From positions 1 through 58,135 of the forward strand of contig JAQXQE010000020.1 of the NCBI GenBank assembly GCA_029101005.1: a DNA stretch of 58,135 nt, read 5' to 3'. Positions 6,949-57,980 of this stretch are shown piece after piece. The notes beneath the pieces are model-generated. The model had not been told where the DNA came from. It did not search any database and saw only the letters and a program-made list of their open reading frames with translations. Position 1 is the first letter of the stretch. Every line of letters begins with the position of its first letter. This stretch comes from Bacillota bacterium. Its GTDB lineage: Bacteria > Bacillota > Clostridia > Peptostreptococcales > Anaerovoracaceae. The position numbers and the translations under genes were made by a program.

Positions 6949-6983
6949 ATATAACCTCCATCTGTGGATATATTCTCCCAGTT

Positions 6984-6992
6984 ATTATACCA
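6984..6992 (-). promoter_or_regulatory. Extended -10 promoter of gpmI
   Basis: Read on the minus strand, TGGTATAAT (the -10 proper at 6984-6989) lies about 36 bases before the gpmI start. No good -35 is seen. The addA start lies about 55 bases to the other side, so the two genes share a compact divergent control region. Confidence 0.5.
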
Positions 6993-7041
6993 CAGCTCCT
7001 TCGAACTAGCATTGACAGGCTGTATATTGTACAATTCTGGT

Positions 7042-10000
7042 ATGGGTAAGATAAGTTATACAGACGAACAGAAACAGGCAATAGATACTTTAGACAGAAG
7101 TATACTCGTTGCTGCGGCGGCAGGTTCCGGCAAGACGGCGGTCCTGATACAGCGTATCGTGAACATCATCCTTCAGGGCAAGGCGGACGTTGACGAGATG
7201 CTTATCGTGACTTTTACCAACGCGGCTGCTGCCGAGATGAGAACTAAGCTCTCTCGCGAGATAAGAAAGCGCATGAAAGAAGACCCTGATAGCAGGGCTA
7301 TGCTCAACGAGCAGTTGGACAAGCTCTTCAAGGCGTATATCTCCACATTCAACAGCTTCGCCAACAGAATCATCAAGGAGTTCTTCTATCTGATTGATAT
7401 GGAACCTAACTTCAGAATATGCGACGAAACTGAAGCTATTATGATGAAGAATGAGGCGATTGACCAGCTCTTCGAGGAGGCTTTCGAGAATGACAATCTG
7501 ATCGAAGGCGGCTCTTTCCGTGACTTCCTCAGACTGTACAGCGGAGATCGAAATGAGGATACAATCAAGGGTGAGATCATAGCGGCATATGACAAGCTGA
7601 GAACTATGCCGGATTACTTCGAGTGGGCGAGAAATAGCCTCTCGGCTCTTGATATGGATAAGGAGACTTTCCTCAAGAGCGAGACGGGACAATATCTCGA
7701 GGCTGAGTGCAAGGCTGCTGTCGACAAGGCAATAGTTGGCATGGAGTACATACAGTGCCTTTTCTCTGATGAGGGCGTAGAGAAGCTCTACGAGGAGAAG
7801 TTCCAGTCTGAGTACGACAGCATGATAGCGGTGCGCGACAGCCTGACAAGGGACTGCTTTGATCCGGATATTCTCAACACGGTCGAATTCGTTCGTGCAC
7901 CTTCAAGTGTCAAGGCGGCCTACAAAGATGGCTATGCTATGATCAAGGATGAGGTCAAGGAAGTAAGGGACGCATATAAGAAAAGCTTCTTGTCTATTAG
8001 GGATGAGTTCTTCTATCCTGATCTTGAGACCAGACTCGAGGAGATGAGGTGCAGTGGCAAATACACAGCCTACTATCTCAACCTGCTCGAGGCTTTCGAG
8101 TGCAGATATCAGGCAATTAAGAAGGATGGCGGCTTAATCGACTTCGGAGATGCGGAGCACACAGCTGCGAGAATCCTCAAGGACGATGATGTTGCGGCAA
8201 CTCTCCGCAACAGATTCAAGTACATCTTCATCGACGAGTACCAGGATACAAACAATATTCAGGAGGCGCTGATCGGAAGAATCGCGCGCGCTGATAACGT
8301 CTTCAAGGTTGGCGACGTGAAGCAGAGCATCTACAGATTCAGACTCGCCGAGCCGGCGATTTTCCAGGAGACATACAGAGAATATTCGGACGAGGCCAAC
8401 GCTGACGCCATCGCAATTGACCTCAACAAGAACTTCCGCTGCAATCCTCGCAGTGTCGACTACATCAACGCTGTCTTCGAGGAGATCATGCCAGGCTACG
8501 ATGATGCGGCAAGGCTCTATGCGGGAGTAGATTCCTGCCCAGCCGAGTTCGACTTCGTGCCTGAGGTCCACGTCCTGCTGAATGGTGATCAGACTGAGTA
8601 TGCTAGCGAAGAGGAAGATGAAGACAATCTCGAGGCTATGGACGGCGAGTTCATCGAGGAAGAGGCTGATGAGGAGATCAGACAGCTCTCTGTTGTCGAG
8701 GCTGAGGCCGAGTACGTGGCTGCAGAGGTCGGCAAGCTGCTCGGAACTGAGTTCTTCGACACTGCTACGGGCGAGCGACGCAAGGTTCAGGCGAGGGATA
8801 TCGTTATTCTTCTCCGCAAAATGAAAAACAAGGGTGACCGCTATGCGGCGGCTCTCCGTGCTCTCGATGTGCAGACTTATGTAGAGGACGACGAGAATTA
8901 CTACGACACGATTGAGATAAGACAGGCGCAGTCTCTTCTCATGACTATAGACAATTTCAAGCGAGACGTGCCACTGATTGCGACACTACACTCGCAGATC
9001 TTCAAATTCGGTGCTGATGAACTTGCAACTATCCGTGCTGAGCACAAGGCAATGCTTCGCGAGTCTAAGCAGAGCACTCGCAATATCCCATACTGGCGTG
9101 CAGTCAAGTGGTACGCTTCTTATGGTAAGGATGCTTCGATTCAGGAGAAGCTTATCAGTGCTATCCAGACTCTGGAGTACTGGAAGGAACTCTCTGCGAT
9201 GATGCCACTTTCGGATTTCATCTGGAAGGTTATCACCGAGTCGGACTTCTATCTCTATGTGGGTGCGATGTCCGACGGCAGCAGACGACAGGCTAACCTC
9301 AGAGCTCTCGCTGACAGGGCTGCGGCCTTCGCCAAGGACAGCATTGTGTCACTCAGTGATTTCATCAGATACCTTGAGATTCTCAAGGGCCGCAAGGTTG
9401 ACAGCGGTCAGGCTGGAATGGTCGGCAAGGATGACGATGTTGTGCGCATCCAGACAATCCACAAGAGTAAAGGTCTCGAGTATCCATTTGTAATAATTGC
9501 GGGACTCGGGACTAAGTTCCGCACAGACAATATCAGCAAGGGCTTCATGCTCGACACCAAGCTCGGCGTTGGTCTCTCATATGTGAGCCCTGACAAGAAG
9601 TTCTGGCGTGCAACTATACGCCAGCGAATGATGTTCGAGAAGGGCATCCGCGAGAGCATGGAAGAGGAGCTTAGAGTGCTCTATGTTGCTATGACTAGAG
9701 CCCGCAACAAGCTGATCCTCGTTGGTACTATCAAGGGTGAGCTTCAGACTTTGCTTGCAGATGAGACTGGTTGCAAGTGCTTCTACGAGCTTATGGGCAG
9801 CAGGCTAAGCACCAAGTTCAATCATCTGGAGATTGCTGATCTCAACAGAGAGGGCGCATACAGAAGCAGAAGCAAGGCGTCTAATGTGATTGAGAACTGC
9901 ATGCCTTCTGAGTCTGTGCTTGCGGATGAGACTGTTGCTGCAGAGGTTGCCAGAAGACTCGACTACAGCTATCCGACTGCTAAGCTTGAACTCAAGGCAA

Positions 10001-11478
10001 AGTATTCTGTAAGTGAGCTTCGCCGCGAGGTGCTCTTCGCGGAAGCTGAGGCTTCAAGTTCTGATGACGAGGTGGTTTCAATTCTTCGCAACACTAACCA
10101 CCAGAAAACTCGCGCTAAGAGCACAGATATTGGAATTGCCTACCACAGAATTATGGAATTCGTGGATTTCGAGAGGGCAGTTTCGGAGTCTGGCACGGTT
10201 AATACTGAATATATTCGCGCATCGGTTTCGCATCTTCTTGACTGCGGTGCCATCGATGCGGATGCATACGAGATGCTCGAACTCGGGCACATTGACGCAT
10301 TCTTCGAGTCGCCTCTCGGCTTAAGGGCTGTAGCTGCGGCGAGAAGGGGCAGCCTGCGTAAGGAGAAGCCTTTTACCCTCGTGAGGGAGAAGGATGGCCA
10401 GTCAGTGCTGGTTCAGGGTGTCATCGACTGCTGTTTCGAAGAGGATGGAGAGATGGTGGTCATTGACTACAAGAGCAGCTTCGTTCGCAAGGGCATAGCC
10501 CACGAACTCGAGCTCAAGCGAATTCGCAAGGAGTACGCGGTGCAGCTCGAACTCTATAGTGAGGCTATCGAACAGGGTACCGATCTTAGCGTTAAGGAGG
10601 CGTATCTATACCTCTTCTTATCGGATGAGGCTGTCAGAATTGAGGCGGACGCGACAGCGTCTGCTTGTGCCAGGCTCGGCCGCTTCTGTAGATTAGTTGG
10701 AATGGGGGAGCTTGAGGGCGGCGATGTGTCGGGAGTTGATTCGGAGTCGCGCCGCCTGATTGAGGGTTTGAATTCGGCGTTGGCGTCGGAATTTGGGGTG
10801 TCTGCTGATACTTCGCTTGGCCCTGCGCCTGATGATGATGTGTGGCGCACAATCTCGGATCTGGTTGTGCAGGCTTTTCCTTACGGCCTATACAGAACTA
10901 AGGCGAAGGATCTGGCTCGCCAGATCCATCAGCTCAGATATGTCATCAGTGCTCAGCAGGCTGAGTACGTCCGTGCGATGTACCCGGCTGACTGCGACGA
11001 GGACAGCCTTGCGATGTATTTCGCTGGCCTCGGCGATGAGTGGTCTTCGGAGGAGTCGGACAGACTTCACAACAAGCGCACTGGTGCTTCATCTCGCAAT
11101 CTGCTGAGGCACGAACCGAATATCAAGCTGGTCTGCGAGAATTTCCATTCGGAGTTCATCCTGGACAACGATGGCAATTTCCTCTACATTCTCAATCCGC
11201 TCGGTTCTGAGAATGACATCATCAATGGCTCAAGCTTCAACTACGCACGCGGCAACGACCTCTGGCTCGACGGCGCAGAGAATCCGCTGAGCATCCACGG
11301 TCTGCTCGATGTTCACATCAGCAAGCTTGACCCGGCCTTCCGCCGCAAGGCGCTGAAGGGCTGGTTCTCGCCATCGCTTATGGAATACAAGATCGGCGGC
11401 TTGTGGCTCGCATCCGTCGCTAGGAAGAAGAGATTCAAGACGAAGGTGGAGAGATATAAGGGAGACTGTGTCAAGTAA
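7042..11478 (+). CDS. addA: AddA-like ATP-dependent helicase-nuclease with C-terminal extension
   Basis: A 1478-residue UvrD/RecB-type enzyme. AddA unwinds and cuts DNA ends to load RecA during double-strand-break repair. Seen here: Walker A AAAAGSGKT at residues 24-32, IFIDEYQDTNNIQ as motif II, GDVKQSIYRFR, RIQTIHKSKGLEY, RVLYVAMTRARNKL, and the RecB-type nuclease motif VIDYKS with D1142 and K1144. Known AddA ends about 60 residues after that motif; this one continues about 335, the last 240 forming an unrecognised domain. No addB lies beside it, which is unusual. The start at 7042 matches the family N-terminus SYTDEQKQAI; no Shine-Dalgarno is visible and the frame is open further upstream. 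Confidence 0.88.
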   Translation: MGKISYTDEQKQAIDTLDRSILVAAAAGSGKTAVLIQRIVNIILQGKADVDEMLIVTFTNAAAAEMRTKLSREIRKRMKEDPDSRAMLNEQLDKLFKAYISTFNSFANRIIKEFFYLIDMEPNFRICDETEAIMMKNEAIDQLFEEAFENDNLIEGGSFRDFLRLYSGDRNEDTIKGEIIAAYDKLRTMPDYFEWARNSLSALDMDKETFLKSETGQYLEAECKAAVDKAIVGMEYIQCLFSDEGVEKLYEEKFQSEYDSMIAVRDSLTRDCFDPDILNTVEFVRAPSSVKAAYKDGYAMIKDEVKEVRDAYKKSFLSIRDEFFYPDLETRLEEMRCSGKYTAYYLNLLEAFECRYQAIKKDGGLIDFGDAEHTAARILKDDDVAATLRNRFKYIFIDEYQDTNNIQEALIGRIARADNVFKVGDVKQSIYRFRLAEPAIFQETYREYSDEANADAIAIDLNKNFRCNPRSVDYINAVFEEIMPGYDDAARLYAGVDSCPAEFDFVPEVHVLLNGDQTEYASEEEDEDNLEAMDGEFIEEEADEEIRQLSVVEAEAEYVAAEVGKLLGTEFFDTATGERRKVQARDIVILLRKMKNKGDRYAAALRALDVQTYVEDDENYYDTIEIRQAQSLLMTIDNFKRDVPLIATLHSQIFKFGADELATIRAEHKAMLRESKQSTRNIPYWRAVKWYASYGKDASIQEKLISAIQTLEYWKELSAMMPLSDFIWKVITESDFYLYVGAMSDGSRRQANLRALADRAAAFAKDSIVSLSDFIRYLEILKGRKVDSGQAGMVGKDDDVVRIQTIHKSKGLEYPFVIIAGLGTKFRTDNISKGFMLDTKLGVGLSYVSPDKKFWRATIRQRMMFEKGIRESMEEELRVLYVAMTRARNKLILVGTIKGELQTLLADETGCKCFYELMGSRLSTKFNHLEIADLNREGAYRSRSKASNVIENCMPSESVLADETVAAEVARRLDYSYPTAKLELKAKYSVSELRREVLFAEAEASSSDDEVVSILRNTNHQKTRAKSTDIGIAYHRIMEFVDFERAVSESGTVNTEYIRASVSHLLDCGAIDADAYEMLELGHIDAFFESPLGLRAVAAARRGSLRKEKPFTLVREKDGQSVLVQGVIDCCFEEDGEMVVIDYKSSFVRKGIAHELELKRIRKEYAVQLELYSEAIEQGTDLSVKEAYLYLFLSDEAVRIEADATASACARLGRFCRLVGMGELEGGDVSGVDSESRRLIEGLNSALASEFGVSADTSLGPAPDDDVWRTISDLVVQAFPYGLYRTKAKDLARQIHQLRYVISAQQAEYVRAMYPADCDEDSLAMYFAGLGDEWSSEESDRLHNKRTGASSRNLLRHEPNIKLVCENFHSEFILDNDGNFLYILNPLGSENDIINGSSFNYARGNDLWLDGAENPLSIHGLLDVHISKLDPAFRRKALKGWFSPSLMEYKIGGLWLASVARKKRFKTKVERYKGDCVK

Positions 11479-11517
11479 TAGCTCTGCTCGGAGCAGGAAG
11501 CGTAACGCATAACGACA

Positions 11518-11550
11518 AAAGAAGTGGCGTGGAGCCACTTCTTTGCTTTT
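11518..11550. terminator. Bidirectional terminator between addA and gap
   Basis: AAAGAAGTGGC and GCCACTTCTTT form a perfect 11-bp stem around GTGGA, with T-rich tails in both directions. It serves the converging addA and gap genes. Confidence 0.8.
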
Positions 11551-11560
11551 GCTGAATATT

Positions 11561-12568
11561 CTAGAGGGTGCCCATGTACTTGAGGGTACGGCAGAGCTGG
11601 TGAACGTAGCTCATCTCGTTGTCGTACCACGCAACTACGCGGACGAGGTAGATGTGTGTGCCTGTCTTCTGAACGAGTGTCTGGGTCGCATCGAAAAGGG
11701 AGCCGTAGCTCATGCCGATTATGTCGCTGGATACGATCTCTTCCTCGGTGTAGCCGAATGACTCGGATACTGCGTTGGCCATTGCGGCGTTCAGGGTCTC
11801 GAGGCTTACGCTGTCTGTCTCGTCTTTGAGGGTAGCATCGAGGATGGTGATTGAACCTGATGGAACTGGCACGCGCTGTGCTGAACCGATGAGCTTGCCG
11901 TCGAGCTCTGGAATTACCAGACCGATGGCTTTTGCGGCGCCGGTGCTGTTAGGCACGATGTTGATTGCGCCGGCTCTTGCTCTTCTGAGATCGCCCTTGC
12001 GGTGTGGACCGTCGAGGATCATCTGGTCGCCTGTGTAAGCGTGGATTGTTGTCATGAATCCGGTTCTTACTTCTCTATAGTCAGCGAGGACTTTTGCCAT
12101 TGGCGCAAGGCAGTTGGTTGTGCATGATGCGCCGGAAACGATTGTGTCCTCTGGCTTAAGTGTCTCGTGGTTAACTCCGTATACGATAGTAGGAAGGTCG
12201 TTGCCGGCAGGTGCTGATATCAGAACTTTCTTAGCTCCGGCGTCGATGTGCGCCTGTGACTTCTCTTTCGAGCAGAAGAATCCAGTGCACTCGAGCACTA
12301 CGTCAATCTCGAGTTCCTTCCAAGGAAGCTTCGATGGATCTGGCTCTGCATATACTGGAATAGCCACTCCGTCAACGATGATATTCGACTCATCGCAGCT
12401 GACTGACTTACCGTATCTCTTCTGAACGCTGTCGTTGCGCAGCAGGTAGGACAGCATCTCAGTATTTGTCAGATCGTTAATCGCAACAATCTCAATGCCC
12501 TCCGCCTGGAAAAGCTGCCTGAACGACAATCTTCCGATTCTTCCGAATCCGTTAATAGCAACTCTCAT
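11561..12568 (-). CDS. gap: Glyceraldehyde-3-phosphate dehydrogenase
   Basis: A 335-residue GAPDH catalysing the NAD-linked oxidation of glyceraldehyde 3-phosphate to 1,3-bisphosphoglycerate in glycolysis. The N-terminal INGFGRIGR is the Rossmann loop, the aspartate in AINDL at residues 30-33 favours NAD over NADP, and SGASCTTNC places the catalytic cysteine at residue 149. ATG 12568 has AAGGAGGAG six bases upstream, so I prefer it to an in-frame ATG 19 codons earlier. The gene is monocistronic, with its own promoter and a shared terminator, not in the frequent gap-pgk-tpi-gpmI operon. Confidence 0.95.
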
Positions 12569-12624
12569 TACATTCTCCTCCTTATTTGAATCTATAATCT
12601 CTAGTCTTTTTGAATCCTGAGACA

Positions 12625-12653
12625 ATTATACTCCTATTGCTCTGTAGTTTGAA
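12625..12653 (-). promoter_or_regulatory. Promoter of gap
   Basis: On the minus strand TTCAAA (12648-12653), 17 bases and TATAAT (12625-12630) form a good vegetative promoter 57 bases before the gap start. Confidence 0.65.
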
Positions 12654-12757
12654 TAGAGAATTTGTGGGATTGTGGGTTTGTGGTATCTGATGTGGTTTTT
12701 GATGCTAGCCGGGTGCGAGCGCGGTGCGGGTGTGGTGCGTGAGGCTAAAATTATGAA

Positions 12758-12778
12758 GGCAACGCGGGTGGCGTTGCC
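12758..12778. repeat. GGCAACGC hairpin, left of element A
   Basis: GGCAACGC and GCGTTGCC flank a five-base loop. The same stem word recurs at 13222-13242 on the other side of element A. Confidence 0.7.
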
Positions 12779-12804
12779 GACTGTTTTGTGAGTGGATTGG
12801 GACT

Positions 12805-50657: not shown

Positions 50658-50664
50658 TTAATCA

Positions 50665-50788
50665 AAAAAAGAAAAGACCCCACTTAAGGGATCTTAAAGC
50701 ACACACTGTGCAGCTGGATAAACCAGCGGGTTGAGTTAAACTTTTATTTGAACTCGCAGTGCAATTCCATAGGGGTCTATGCAATTAC
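50665..50788 (-). ncRNA. tracrRNA
   Basis: On the minus strand an anti-repeat (50747-50778) matches the array repeat, with 23 uninterrupted identical bases on the plus strand (50756-50778) after a small bulge. The rest folds into a nexus-like region, a GCTGG/CCAGC hairpin (50712-50726), a GCACA/TGTGC hairpin, and a terminator stem AAGATCCC/GGGGTCTT followed by TTTTC. The section after the anti-repeat (GAGTTCAAATAAAAGTT) resembles the same part of other II-A tracrRNAs. Its promoter faces away from cas9. Length is about 124 bases. It pairs with crRNA for RNase III processing and Cas9 loading. Confidence 0.9.
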
Positions 50789-50824: not shown

Positions 50825-53800
50825 ATGAAATATGATGGAAAATATTATTTAGGATTAGACATCGGTACTGATTCAGTAGGTTATGCTGTTACAGATGACA
50901 AGTATAATCTTCTCAAATTCCATGGCGAGCCAGCCTGGGGCGTTACAATCTTCGACCAGGGAGCGTTGGCTGAGGAGAGAAGAAGCTTCCGTTCTGCTCG
51001 AAGAAGACTTGATCGTAGACAGCAGAGAGTTGCTCTTGTGCAGGAACTCTTCGCCAAGGAGATTGAGAAAGTTGATGATAGATTCTTCATCAGGCTTCAG
51101 GAGAGTAAGCTCTATAGAGATGAAGTCAATGATAAGCATATTCTATTTAATGATGCGGACTTCACTGACAAAGAATACTATGCGAAATACCCAACCATTC
51201 ATCATCTGATTTGCGATCTGATGGAGAGCAAAGAACCTCATGATGTAAGGCTCGTTTATCTTGCTTGTGCTTGGCTTGTTTCGCACAGAGGTCACTTCCT
51301 CAGCAACATCAGCGTAGACAATGTAGCTGCAATTACAGATTTCAACACGGTATATGATGCATTCCTTCAGTATTTCGTAGATAACGGATATGAAGCTCCT
51401 TGGAATGCAGTTGATGCAGATGCTCTTGGAGCTGTGCTCAAGGCAAGTACTTCAATTACTGTAAAGAACAAGAATCTTACTGCAGTTATTAATCCTAATG
51501 GCAAGGTCAACAAAGATGATAGAGAGGAATTCCCTTTTGGTAGACCTGCGATTATTAAGCTCCTCGCAGGAGGAACTGTTAAACTTAAAGACCTATATAA
51601 CAAGGAGGAATACACAGACCTGGGTTCAATCTCGCTTGGAATGGATGATGATGCACTCGCTCAGATTGCAACAGAGATAGGTGAAGACTTTGACATCATT
51701 GAACAGATGAGAGCGTTATACGACTGGTCTGTTCTTGCAGATGCCTTGGGTGATAATAAGTGTATTTCTGAAGCTAAGGTCAAGGTGTATGAGCAGCACA
51801 AGAAGGATCTTGCTACACTCAAATACGTAGTGAAGAAATATATTCCTGCTGAGTATAATGCAATATTCAGGGATGTAGATAAGGATAACTATGCGGGCTA
51901 TGCTCATCACACAGATGAAGTAACTGGCAGTAAGTTCAAGGTGAAGAATATCGAGGACTTCTCGAAGTTCGTAATTAAGAAAATTGAGAAGATTGAAGTT
52001 GAGGCTGAAGATGTAGTCGCATTCGAGGACATGAAGACAAGACTCGAGAGCAGAAACTTCATGCCAAAGCAGAAGAATACAGACAACAGAGTTATTCCTT
52101 GTCAGCTCTATCATTATGAACTTAGAGAGATTCTTAAGAATGCTGAAACGTACCTGCCATTCCTCAAAGAGGAATCAGATGGTCTCTCTGTTAGTGGCAA
52201 GATAGAATCAATCTTCAAGTTCAAGATTCCATACTTCGTTGGACCACTGAATGCAGATTCAGAGCATGCTTGGCTTGTAAGAAAATCTGACAAGATATAC
52301 CCATGGAACTTTGAGGATGTTGTTGACCTTGACGCAAGTGAGGAGAAGTTCATCCAGAGAATGACAAATACTTGCACATATCTGCCTGGTGAACCTGTTG
52401 TTCCTAAGGATTCACTTGCATATCACAGATTCACTGTACTGAACGAGATAAATAATATTCGCATCAACGGTGAGAGAATATCTGTTGAGCTTAAGCAGGC
52501 TATCTATAATGATCTGTTTATGAATCTCAAGAAGGTGACACGCAGGAAACTCAACGAGTATCTGATTTGCAACGGAGTAATCGAGAAGGATGAGGAAGAT
52601 CTCATCACTGGAATTGATATTGCGATTAATTCAAATCTGTCCTCCCAGATTGCATTCAAGCAGTTACTTAATAGTGGGGTCTTAACCGAGAATGATGTCG
52701 AGAGAATAATAGAAAGAGCTTCATATGCGGAGGACAAGAGCCGCCTTGCCAAGTGGCTTGAGGTAAATTACCCACAGGTTAGCATCGAGGACAGAAAGTA
52801 CATCTGCAGAGTAAAAATTAAGGATTTCGGACGTCTATCGAGAAGATTCCTTACTGAGTTGGAAGGTGTATGCAAAGCGACGGGAGAAGTATATACAATT
52901 CTCTCCGCTCTTTGGAATACGCAGGATAATCTTATGGAACTTCTCTCTGACAGATACACCTTCTCAGAGGAGATTGCTTCATTCCGAGATGAATATTACT
53001 CAACGCATCCAATGAATCTCGAGAGCAAGCTCGACGAGATGTATGTATCGAATGCGGTAAGAAGACCTATATACAGAACTCTTGCAATTGTTAAGGATGT
53101 TGAGAAAGCATTCGGTAAGCCAGCGAAGATATTCGTAGAGACAACACGAAGTGCCGATGACAGTCAGAAGGGCAAGCGAACAAAGAGCAGAAAAGATCAG
53201 ATTCTTGATCTCTATAAGCTGTGCAGAGATGAGGAAGTCAAACTGCTCAAGCAGCAACTCGACGCAATGGGTGAATATGCTGACAACAAGCTGCAGGGTG
53301 ACAAGTTGTTCCTCTACTATATGCAGCTTGGAAGATGCATGTATACCGGTGAGCCTATCGAACTTGAGAAGCTTGGCACTAAGCTGTATGACATAGATCA
53401 CATCTATCCACAAGCAGTAGTTCAAGATGACAGCATTCTGAATAACAAGGTTCTCTGTCTCTCAACGGCAAACGGCGAGAAATCTGACACCTACCCAATT
53501 AAGGACAGCATTCGACATGATATGTATGGATTCTGGTCGATGCTCAATGACGCGGGACTGATTACAGACGAGAAGTACAAGAGGTTGAAGAGGGCTACTC
53601 CGTTCACAGATGATGAGAAATGGGGCTTCATTAACAGACAGCTGACAGAGACATCACAGTCAACTAAGGCCGTTGCATCAGTGCTGAACGACAGATTCCC
53701 AGATGCAGAAATTGTCTACAGCAAAGCAAAACTGGTTTCTGACTTTAGACATCAGTATGGTTTGCTCAAATCCAGAACATTCAACGACCTGCATCATGCA

Positions 53801-54886
53801 AAGGATGCATATCTGAATATCGTTGTGGGCAATGTCTATAATATGAAGTTCACAAAACGTTGGTTCTCTGTTGACTCGAAATACAGCATGAAGACAACTA
53901 CTCTCTTCTCGCATCCACTAGTATGTAACGGAGTTACAGTCTGGAACGGCGAGGAGATGCTTACGCACGTCAAGAAGACCGTTGCTAAGAACAATGCACA
54001 CTTCACTAAGTATTCGTACTTCAAGACGGGCGGACTGTTCGATCAGATGCCAGTGGCTGCCTCCGATGGTCTCGCACCTCTCAAAAAAGGACTCGATACC
54101 TCGAAGTATGGCGGTTACAACAAGTCGGGTGCTATGTTCTATATTCCTGTTCGTTACAAGGCTGGTAAGAAGTCTGACATTCTCATAATGTCAGTTGAGA
54201 TGCAGTTCGGAAAGAAGTTCCTTGCAGATGCGCAGTTTGCAGAGGAATACTCATTCCGCAGACTCAAACACATCCTGGGCAAGCCAGTAGATGAAGTCAG
54301 CTTCCCTATGGGAATGAGACCATGGAAAGTCAACACAATGCTTGAACTTGATGGGTTCAGAGTGTGCATTGCAGGCATTGGAAGCGGTGGAAAGTGTTTA
54401 ATTGCTCAACCAGTTATGCAGTTTGCAGAGAGTATCTACTGGAATAATTACATTAAGCGTATTGAAAGATTTGTAGAGAAATGCACAATAAATAAGAACT
54501 ACATCTATGATGAAGAGTGCGATAAAGTGTCCAAGGAGAAAAACTTGGAACTCTATGATGTCTGCTTAAACAAGTTCAAATCATCCATTTGGAGCAAACG
54601 AGTAAATGCCCCTCTCTCGACATTAGAGAAAGGAAGATGCATATTTGCGCAGCTGGATATCAAAGATCAAACTCGTGCGCTTTCAAACATTATGCAGACC
54701 TTTGGTAGAGTGGCAAGTGGTTGCGACCTTACGTTAATAGGTGGTGCAGGAAGAGCTGCAGCTTGTGTAAACTTCAGCTCGACTGTTTCAAACTGGGGTA
54801 AAAACTATTCGTGCGTTAGAATAATTGATTCTTCTACGTCAGGGCTGTGGATAAGCAAATCTGACAATTTGCTTGAATTATTATGA
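50825..54886 (+). CDS. cas9: CRISPR nuclease Cas9 (type II-A)
   Basis: A 1353-residue Cas9, close to SpCas9 in size. It cuts DNA matching the spacer under guidance of crRNA and tracrRNA. RuvC-I LGLDIGTDSVG has D12; the arginine-rich bridge helix follows (about 53-76); RuvC-II IFVETTRSA has E772; HNH YDIDHIYPQ has H859, with N883 in the STANGEK segment; RuvC-III LHHAKDAYLN has H991 and D994. All nuclease residues are thus kept. The last 240 residues form the PAM-interacting region; no RxR like that of SpCas9 is evident, so PAM choice is unknown. GGGGGAAAG is the ribosome site. cas1 overlaps by four bases. Confidence 0.97.
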   Translation: MKYDGKYYLGLDIGTDSVGYAVTDDKYNLLKFHGEPAWGVTIFDQGALAEERRSFRSARRRLDRRQQRVALVQELFAKEIEKVDDRFFIRLQESKLYRDEVNDKHILFNDADFTDKEYYAKYPTIHHLICDLMESKEPHDVRLVYLACAWLVSHRGHFLSNISVDNVAAITDFNTVYDAFLQYFVDNGYEAPWNAVDADALGAVLKASTSITVKNKNLTAVINPNGKVNKDDREEFPFGRPAIIKLLAGGTVKLKDLYNKEEYTDLGSISLGMDDDALAQIATEIGEDFDIIEQMRALYDWSVLADALGDNKCISEAKVKVYEQHKKDLATLKYVVKKYIPAEYNAIFRDVDKDNYAGYAHHTDEVTGSKFKVKNIEDFSKFVIKKIEKIEVEAEDVVAFEDMKTRLESRNFMPKQKNTDNRVIPCQLYHYELREILKNAETYLPFLKEESDGLSVSGKIESIFKFKIPYFVGPLNADSEHAWLVRKSDKIYPWNFEDVVDLDASEEKFIQRMTNTCTYLPGEPVVPKDSLAYHRFTVLNEINNIRINGERISVELKQAIYNDLFMNLKKVTRRKLNEYLICNGVIEKDEEDLITGIDIAINSNLSSQIAFKQLLNSGVLTENDVERIIERASYAEDKSRLAKWLEVNYPQVSIEDRKYICRVKIKDFGRLSRRFLTELEGVCKATGEVYTILSALWNTQDNLMELLSDRYTFSEEIASFRDEYYSTHPMNLESKLDEMYVSNAVRRPIYRTLAIVKDVEKAFGKPAKIFVETTRSADDSQKGKRTKSRKDQILDLYKLCRDEEVKLLKQQLDAMGEYADNKLQGDKLFLYYMQLGRCMYTGEPIELEKLGTKLYDIDHIYPQAVVQDDSILNNKVLCLSTANGEKSDTYPIKDSIRHDMYGFWSMLNDAGLITDEKYKRLKRATPFTDDEKWGFINRQLTETSQSTKAVASVLNDRFPDAEIVYSKAKLVSDFRHQYGLLKSRTFNDLHHAKDAYLNIVVGNVYNMKFTKRWFSVDSKYSMKTTTLFSHPLVCNGVTVWNGEEMLTHVKKTVAKNNAHFTKYSYFKTGGLFDQMPVAASDGLAPLKKGLDTSKYGGYNKSGAMFYIPVRYKAGKKSDILIMSVEMQFGKKFLADAQFAEEYSFRRLKHILGKPVDEVSFPMGMRPWKVNTMLELDGFRVCIAGIGSGGKCLIAQPVMQFAESIYWNNYIKRIERFVEKCTINKNYIYDEECDKVSKEKNLELYDVCLNKFKSSIWSKRVNAPLSTLEKGRCIFAQLDIKDQTRALSNIMQTFGRVASGCDLTLIGGAGRAAACVNFSSTVSNWGKNYSCVRIIDSSTSGLWISKSDNLLELL

Positions 54887-56825: not shown

Positions 56826-57980
56826 GTTTGAGAGCAGTGCAATTCCATAGGGGTCTCAAACAGGCTTTGATGGTGCGTTTCCTGTGTAGTTGTTTGAGAG
56901 CAGTGCAATTCCATAGGGGTCTCAAACGGCGTGGCTTGGAGATAAGGCTGACTCTTCGTTTGAGAGCAGTGCAATTCCATAGGGGTCTCAAACGGTAGAG
57001 GTTGTAGCAAAGGAAATTGAAGTGTTTGAGAGCAGTGCAATTCCATAGGGGTCTCAAACCATATCGTAAAAGAGGGCAACAAGACGGGTGTTTGAGAGCA
57101 GTGCAATTCCATAGGGGTCTCAAACAATTTCGTTCGCTGAACGTATAACTATCATGTTTGAGAGCAGTGCAATTCCATAGGGGTCTCAAACACGATAGGA
57201 GGCATATAGATGGCAGACAACGTTTGAGAGCAGTGCAATTCCATAGGGGTCTCAAACTCTGTCCGCCATTGCGTAAATGTCATTAGGGTTTGAGAGCAGT
57301 GCAATTCCATAGGGGTCTCAAACGTTCCTGTTGAGCTATCTACTTATGGCCATGTTTGAGAGCAGTGCAATTCCATAGGGGTCTCAAACAACCCTATTAT
57401 TTTTTCCTCCATAAGACCAGTTTGAGAGCAGTGCAATTCCATAGGGGTCTCAAACACACGATACGCCTTGCGATTAATGACATAGTTTGAGAGCAGTGCA
57501 ATTCCATAGGGGTCTCAAACCTATCCTGAACAAGCAGATTTATGCTACTGTTTGAGAGCAGTGCAATTCCATAGGGGTCTCAAACATCGCGACTAAACTT
57601 AGAGCGAGATATGTCGTTTGAGAGCAGTGCAATTCCATAGGGGTCTCAAACCGGAAACAATTTGCATATGATATGCAAGTTGTTTGAGAGCAGTGCAATT
57701 CCATAGGGGTCTCAAACTCGCCAAAATCATTTGGGGTCGAATAGCCGTTTGAGAGCAGTGCAATTCCATAGGGGTCTCAAACTCACGAACTCTTTAATAA
57801 AACCACAAGTGCGTTTGAGAGCAGTGCAATTCCATAGGGGTCTCAAACAATTACGTTCTGAAAATGTATAACTATCCTGTTTGAGAGCAGTGCAATTCCA
57901 TAGGGGTCTCAAACGCTAATTCTGATCAGCTATTTAAGGATAGAGTTTGAGAGCAGTGCAATTCCATAGGGGTCTCAAAC
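56826..57980 (+). CRISPR. Type II-A CRISPR array, 18 repeats and 17 spacers
   Basis: A 36-base repeat begins GTTTGAGAGCAGTGC and ends AGGGGTCTCAAAC. All 18 copies look identical, including the last. Starts: 56826, 56892, 56958, 57024, 57090, 57156, 57222, 57288, 57354, 57420, 57485, 57550, 57616, 57682, 57747, 57813, 57879 and 57945. Spacers are 30 bases, or 29 for spacers 10, 11 and 14. Direction is plus, from the leader and by the GTTTGAGAGC 5' end that pairs with the tracrRNA. Spacers 5 and 16 are homologous to each other. Confidence 0.98.

Follow-up and report, generated by a model that had tools for sequence, protein, structure and literature searches.

Two silently differing spacers in a type II-A CRISPR array of an Anaerovoracaceae bacterium have homologues in the gokushovirus pilot protein gene

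The type II-A locus and its array

The window, that is, the whole stretch of DNA analysed here, spans 58,135 nucleotides of contig JAQXQE010000020.1 from an Anaerovoracaceae genome of 1.6 Mb in 27 contigs (assembly GCA_029101005.1). It contains the following features.

50660..50780, minus strand: putative tracrRNA, with a 23-base anti-repeat (50756-50778), hairpins and a T run
50825..54886, plus strand: cas9 (1353 aa), type II-A, with Pfam matches to Cas9_REC, Cas9_PI, HNH_4, the bridge helix and RuvC, and TIGR01865 at 866 bits
54883..55761, plus strand: cas1 (type II), TIGR03639 at 309 bits
55778..56092, plus strand: cas2, TIGR01573 and PF09827
56089..56751, plus strand: csn2, TIGR01866 at 127 bits and PF09711
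56752..56825, plus strand: presumed leader, named for its position between csn2 and the first repeat
56826..57980, plus strand: CRISPR array with 17 spacers (29-30 bases) between 18 identical repeats of 36 bases

Because cas9, cas1, cas2 and csn2 occur together, we typed the locus as II-A, and it is an ordinary CRISPR-Cas system of that type. The array has the constant repeats and the unique spacers of about 30 bases that characterize type II-A arrays, and the cas9 product contains the DIG and DIDHI motifs. Upstream of cas9, the anti-repeat is identical over its 23 bases to repeat bases 9-31. The minus-strand RNA that carries it has a predicted fold of -33.4 kcal/mol (z -2.7; 5 of 200 shuffles were equally good) and gave no Rfam match at E 0.1. 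Its position, anti-repeat, fold and T run make it the likely tracrRNA.

In type II-A systems, the leader conventionally lies on the cas side of the array. This orientation agrees with the degenerate last repeat of a second array, which has five spacers with the same repeat (contig 3, 141-495) and a truncated first repeat. The spacers of this second array gave no match in the phage collection. Among 47 genomes of the genus, the repeat was found within 3 mismatches in this bacterium's own genome only. Elsewhere in the window, one 1504-residue frame (6964-11478) combines a UvrD-like helicase with a PD-(D/E)XK nuclease domain and also matches DUF3114.

When Cas9 was compared with the sequences of solved structures by phmmer, 9jwk scored 716 bits over residues 4-1346, followed by 9vj8 (453 bits) and 4cmp (448 bits), the last of which we take to be S. 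pyogenes Cas9. The C-terminal 286 residues matched 9jwk only among these sequences. 9JWK is reported to be FrCas9 (PMC13052146), making FrCas9 the closest solved relative of this Cas9, PAM domain included. FrCas9, from Faecalibaculum rodentium, is described as recognizing an NNTA PAM with guides of 21-22 bases (PMC8931148). As far as that system is described there, the two share cas1, cas2, csn2 and an array beside cas9, an anti-repeat that lies upstream of cas9 on the other strand, and an alignable PAM domain. However, the present Cas9 has clearly diverged from FrCas9, with the PAM domain alone scoring 36 bits.

Silent differences between spacers 5 and 16

Two spacers of the array had been singled out in the original prediction, and their coordinates, lengths and agreement were exact on recomputation.

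57126..57155, plus strand: spacer 5, nearer the leader and presumably younger; antisense to a site homologous to gokushovirus VP2, peptide DSYTFSERN
57849..57878, plus strand: spacer 16, presumably older; peptide DSYTFSERN, with the same VP2 site as spacer 5

The two are separated by ten other spacers. In register they are identical at 23 of 30 bases, and their ends are equal. When all 136 spacer pairs were compared, the second-best score was 12 matches in register; with ungapped shifts of up to 10 bases on either strand allowed, it was 17 of 29. The binomial probability of the likeness between spacers 5 and 16 is 8.7e-9 per pair and 1.2e-6 over the 136 pairs.

Comparison of all six frames confirmed the claim that both spacers encode DSYTFSERN over nine codons that differ only silently. 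Minus-strand frame 2 is the sole frame in which no amino acid differs, and the silent differences fall in Thr, Phe, Ser and Arg codons. Minus frame 0 is open in both spacers, yet it carries five amino-acid differences; the remaining four frames have a stop in spacer 5, spacer 16 or both. The seventh base difference lies outside the nine codons, at base 29, in the codon preceding Asp, where spacer 5 has NAT and spacer 16 has NAG. This difference necessarily alters the residue before DSYTFSERN, which was probably Asp in one source and Glu in the other.

When seven random changes were introduced into spacer 5, some open frame remained unchanged at the amino-acid level in 54 of 400,000 trials. When only the bases were randomized and the seven positions stayed fixed, this occurred in 7,378 of 200,000 trials. 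Together with the identity of all 18 repeats, the first of these figures bears out the view that random mutation of one spacer is an unlikely source of the other.

Homologous sites in gokushovirus genomes

Exact protospacers of spacers 5 and 16 were absent from phages, plasmids, viral contigs (searched with peptide patterns) and GTDB contigs. None was found in 393 genomes of the order, 47 of the genus or 349 of the family (the own genome being counted in each). Together with a search of the own genome, these searches returned nothing but the two copies in the array and matches that look like chance. BLASTN of the two spacers against phages gave E values of 2-8. The search of phages with the spacers and their peptide that the original prediction had proposed thus returned a homologous site, in VP2, but not an exact protospacer; exact DSYTFSERN was absent from all microvirus loci examined.

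In a scan of 118 microvirus loci, spacer 5 matched one locus (L185) at 22 of 30 bases, a score reached by 12 of 340 shuffles. The match is antisense to a 372-residue frame that carries the VP2 motif; it shares the frame of DSYTFSERN and reads YMD-EIYKITDRN-NAWS. When spacer 5 was shuffled 1200 times, 54 shuffles reached 22 of 30 somewhere, and 9 did so antisense to an open frame no shorter than 100 aa at the offset seen in L185. Spacer 16 matched the VP2 gene of Peromfec virus RodF8_30 (L195; OM869643) at 20 of 30 bases (ALD-RIYQLSDRN-SARS), and equally that of PQ007143 (peptide QIYKISERN). The fairest test comes from the four loci other than L185 and L195, PQ007143 among them, which were picked by their likeness to the L185 VP2 stretch and not to the spacers. 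These read ALD-QIYKISERN-TARS (twice), ALD-NIYKLSDRN-SARS and ALD-RIYEVSERN-TARS, with DNA identities of 14-20 of 30 bases.

The six VP2 homologues and DSYTFSERN all have in common only Y, R and N plus a conservative pattern, Y-x-[FILVM]-[ST]-[ED]-R-N. Among frames of at least 60 aa, this pattern was found in 6 of 122 microvirus loci, once in each and always at the VP2 site. When DSYTFSERN was shuffled and scored against the six VP2 peptides, the mean score was reached in 3 of 20,000 shuffles and the best score in 14. The pattern and shuffle figures carry selection because the pattern and the six loci were chosen after the L185 match. The flanking codons also fit: Asp precedes the peptide in all six homologues, as NAT read as GAT (Asp) would in spacer 5, and NAG read as GAG in spacer 16 fits the VP2 site given a change from Asp to Glu. 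The codon after the peptide begins with T in both spacers, like the Ser codon (TCN) of L195 and of one further locus, L200. A profile scan of about 40 gut microviruses left the VP2 site unranked, its best site being a capsid site equalled by 882 of 2000 shuffles; the scan missed the VP2 site because most of these microviruses have different residues there.

Judged by homology, then, the shared site of the two spacers has its counterparts in gokushovirus VP2, the DNA pilot protein gene, antisense and in the predicted frame, and the target gene family can be identified on that basis. These homologues have the strand and frame named beforehand and do not lie in unrelated genes or on the wrong strand or frame. 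They also support the proposal that the two spacers were captured, with equal ends, from coding sequences that are homologous between related phages.

Several other candidates were set aside. The best single DNA match that we saw, one of the stretches returned by the pattern scans of viral contigs, was to the gene of an HU-family protein (PF00216, E 2.3e-12) that reads DSYTFKERN and agrees with each spacer at 23 of 30 bases. A wider pattern for this site occurred in three contigs only, its phage relatives are all less than 60% identical, and the VP2 site suits the rest of the array better; we keep it as the less likely candidate. DSYTFSERN itself occurs in a pectate lyase of a GTDB contig (PF00544, E 1.5e-6), where the DNA agrees with each spacer at 18 of 30 bases, a match that we attribute to chance. 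Five scans of viral contigs with peptide and spacer patterns returned 0, 37, 9, 3 and 0 stretches; the contexts of the 37 and the 9 were unlike one another, several with stops nearby, and these look like chance. A Capybara microvirus match to spacer 16 (20 of 30) has a stop in frame, as read by eye. A VP4 site before QLFMKRLR reached at most 18 of 30 bases and fell outside the top five of the profile; in tests confined to this single chosen site, it was equalled by 20 and 3 of 2000 shuffles. The VP4 C-terminus ESFAFSERR was equalled by 119 of 1000 shuffles, and the capsid site YLDTYYFFVPNR with an added Tyr by 83 of 2000.

Four other spacers also matched gokushovirus genes, one of them weakly.

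57521..57549, plus strand: spacer 11, homologous to the major capsid gene, sense (ILNKQIYAT); 24 of 29 bases to bajarodmic viruses 521 and 25
57586..57615, plus strand: spacer 12, homologous to the major capsid gene, antisense (DISRSKFSRD); 26 of 30 to Microvirus mar30
57652..57681, plus strand: spacer 13, homologous to the C-terminus of the replication initiator, VP4 (RKQFAYDMQV); 22 of 30 to bajarodmic viruses 95 and 566
57915..57944, plus strand: spacer 17, possible capsid C-terminal site, weak

In the 118 microvirus loci, the scores of spacers 11 and 12 were reached by none of 340 shuffles, and their profile scores by none of 500; BLASTN gave E 0.01 for spacer 12. For spacer 13, 12 of 340 shuffles attained the DNA score; the profile supports the site better (3 of 500). 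For spacer 17, the profile score was reached by 13 of 500 shuffles and the DNA score (21 of 30) equalled by 95 of 340. Spacers 11-13 (57521-57681) are consecutive, and their capsid (11, 12) and VP4 (13) matches point to a link between gokushoviruses and this host. Spacer 3 was rejected: its translated score was 43 (0 of 242 in the null), yet its DNA agreed at only 19-20 of 30 bases, and the profile score of another frame was reached by 393 of 500 shuffles. The best profile sites of spacers 2, 7 and 15, in VP1, VP2 and VP4, were equalled by 50, 46 and 43 of 500 and were likewise rejected. Spacer 6 (57192-57221) resembles a gene start, with AGGAGG followed by ATG GCA GAC AAC; no target was found for it. 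One of the 349 family genomes carries a gokushovirus capsid gene (PF02305) and other microvirus-like frames at 9546-12782 of its contig 48. This contig also carries bacterial-looking frames, as judged by eye, and the locus reaches the contig end; it is possibly a provirus and may be an assembly artefact.

Flanks of the homologous sites bear on the PAM. For spacer 11 they are GGTA (bajarodmic 521, mar30) and GGTT (bajarodmic 25); for spacer 12, AATA (mar30, Dulem virus 166, OM869699), AAGA (bajarodmic 521) and TAAA (bajarodmic 95, 566); and for spacer 13, ATTA (OM869699, mar30) and TTAA (bajarodmic 95, 566). TA stands at flank positions 3-4 in 23 of 49 homologous sites of spacer 11, 9 of 29 of spacer 12, 4 of 14 of spacer 13 and 7 of 48 of spacer 17; the background frequency of TA is 7-9% of dinucleotides in eight genomes. 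The FrCas9-like Cas9 and spacers 11-13 suggest that NNTA is the likely, if unproven, PAM, which the VP2 site does not support. There, NNTA would require a Tyr codon (TAY) two before the Asp, where the six homologues have Leu or Met, and none of the six has an NNTA flank. Derivation of a PAM from the bases 3' of the paired protospacers, as originally proposed, therefore failed on these homologues, which share no such flank.

Origin and meaning of the spacer pair

We consider it probable that spacers 5 and 16 are separate captures of one VP2 site, antisense to the gene, from two related gokushoviruses. Gokushoviruses, which are small single-stranded DNA phages, would be encountered as the double-stranded replicative form. 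The VP2 protein would have stayed constant over nine residues while its DNA drifted at silent positions. Cas9 and its PAM would fix the ends of the spacers, so that both start and stop alike. Spacer 16, being farther from the leader, would have been acquired first. Against the spacer 5 target, the spacer 16 guide has mismatches at positions 2, 14, 17, 18, 19 and 20 from the 3' end of that target. Cas9 depends on seed pairing, and the spacer 16 guide should not cut the spacer 5 target. With six mismatches in the 20 PAM-proximal bases, one of them at seed position 2, spacer 16 should thus not stop the spacer 5 virus. A virus that encodes the same protein in other codons would then escape spacer 16 and be captured anew at this position, so that recapture following silent drift is plausible. 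If all 17 draws came from a single type of genome and the PAM had two bases, the probability of a repeated site would be 0.19 for a genome of 5.2 kb and 0.03 for one of 40 kb. Because the virus genome is small, a repeated site is unsurprising under these assumptions.

Since annotated microvirus records that we examined each hold one pilot protein, the two spacer versions stand for two viruses or for one lineage at two times. Under the second alternative, a single virus lineage was captured, then drifted or escaped, and later gave rise to a second spacer. This would yield the same pair, and the mismatch at seed position 2, together with the run of four at 17-20, would impair the older guide. 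However, seven changes that include a swap of Ser codons (AGC/TCA) and are silent over nine codons resemble long divergence rather than escape from a single guide, and we regard this course of events as improbable.

A single virus carrying the site twice, as paralogues or a repeated domain, would also give silent divergence and equal ends. The single pilot protein per record, the single occurrence of the site pattern per locus and the ten spacers between 5 and 16 make this very improbable. A conserved non-coding or structural element, with the silent frame as a side effect, has in its favour that the plus strands of both spacers form a short hairpin in a similar place (-3.2 and -2.0 kcal/mol; z -1.2 and -2.2). 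These folds are weak, the minus strand of spacer 16 is unfolded, frame and strand agree with VP2, and an all-silent outcome is rare in the random trials, so that such an element is most unlikely to explain the pair. Finally, duplication of a repeat-spacer unit followed by mutation would likewise give equal ends, but 18 identical repeats beside spacers that differ at 7 of 30 bases, the silent pattern, and a probability of about 1e-6 for chance likeness leave a copied or coincidental pair scarcely credible.

Separate capture from two related gokushoviruses also invites a bolder reading, in which silent drift at the constrained VP2 site is itself the escape from Cas9 guides, the host recaptures the site, and the array records the molecular clock of a single-stranded DNA phage gene; we think this rather unlikely. 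If the PAM were NNTA, we would guess that a Tyr (TAY) stood two codons before DSYTFSERN, where a silent change could never remove the PAM.

Repeated use of one protospacer has been described in another system. In the Legionella type I-C system, two of the 23 spacers newly acquired from a single plasmid are reported to target the same protospacer (PMC5071653). That case, as reported, shares with ours two spacers from one protospacer position; it involved one plasmid, an identical protospacer and priming, whereas 7 of the 30 bases differ between the two spacers here. Spacers that target Microviridae have been used for host assignment (PMC9239249), and the targets named in that source, capsid, pilot and replication genes, are those found here. 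In contrast to its cases, the present array has only homologues (20-26 of 29-30 bases) and no exact target. The literature that we searched does not show that silent-variant spacer pairs are unreported. The capture behaviour fits known CRISPR biology and leaves the picture of CRISPR adaptation unchanged.

A silent-variant pair in one array would document a host's encounters with a single phage gene site in two versions, and it shows how protein constraint and free codon choice may together shape CRISPR targets. With 5 of the 17 spacers assigned by homology, gokushoviruses, which are mostly known from viromes, would be linked to a host.
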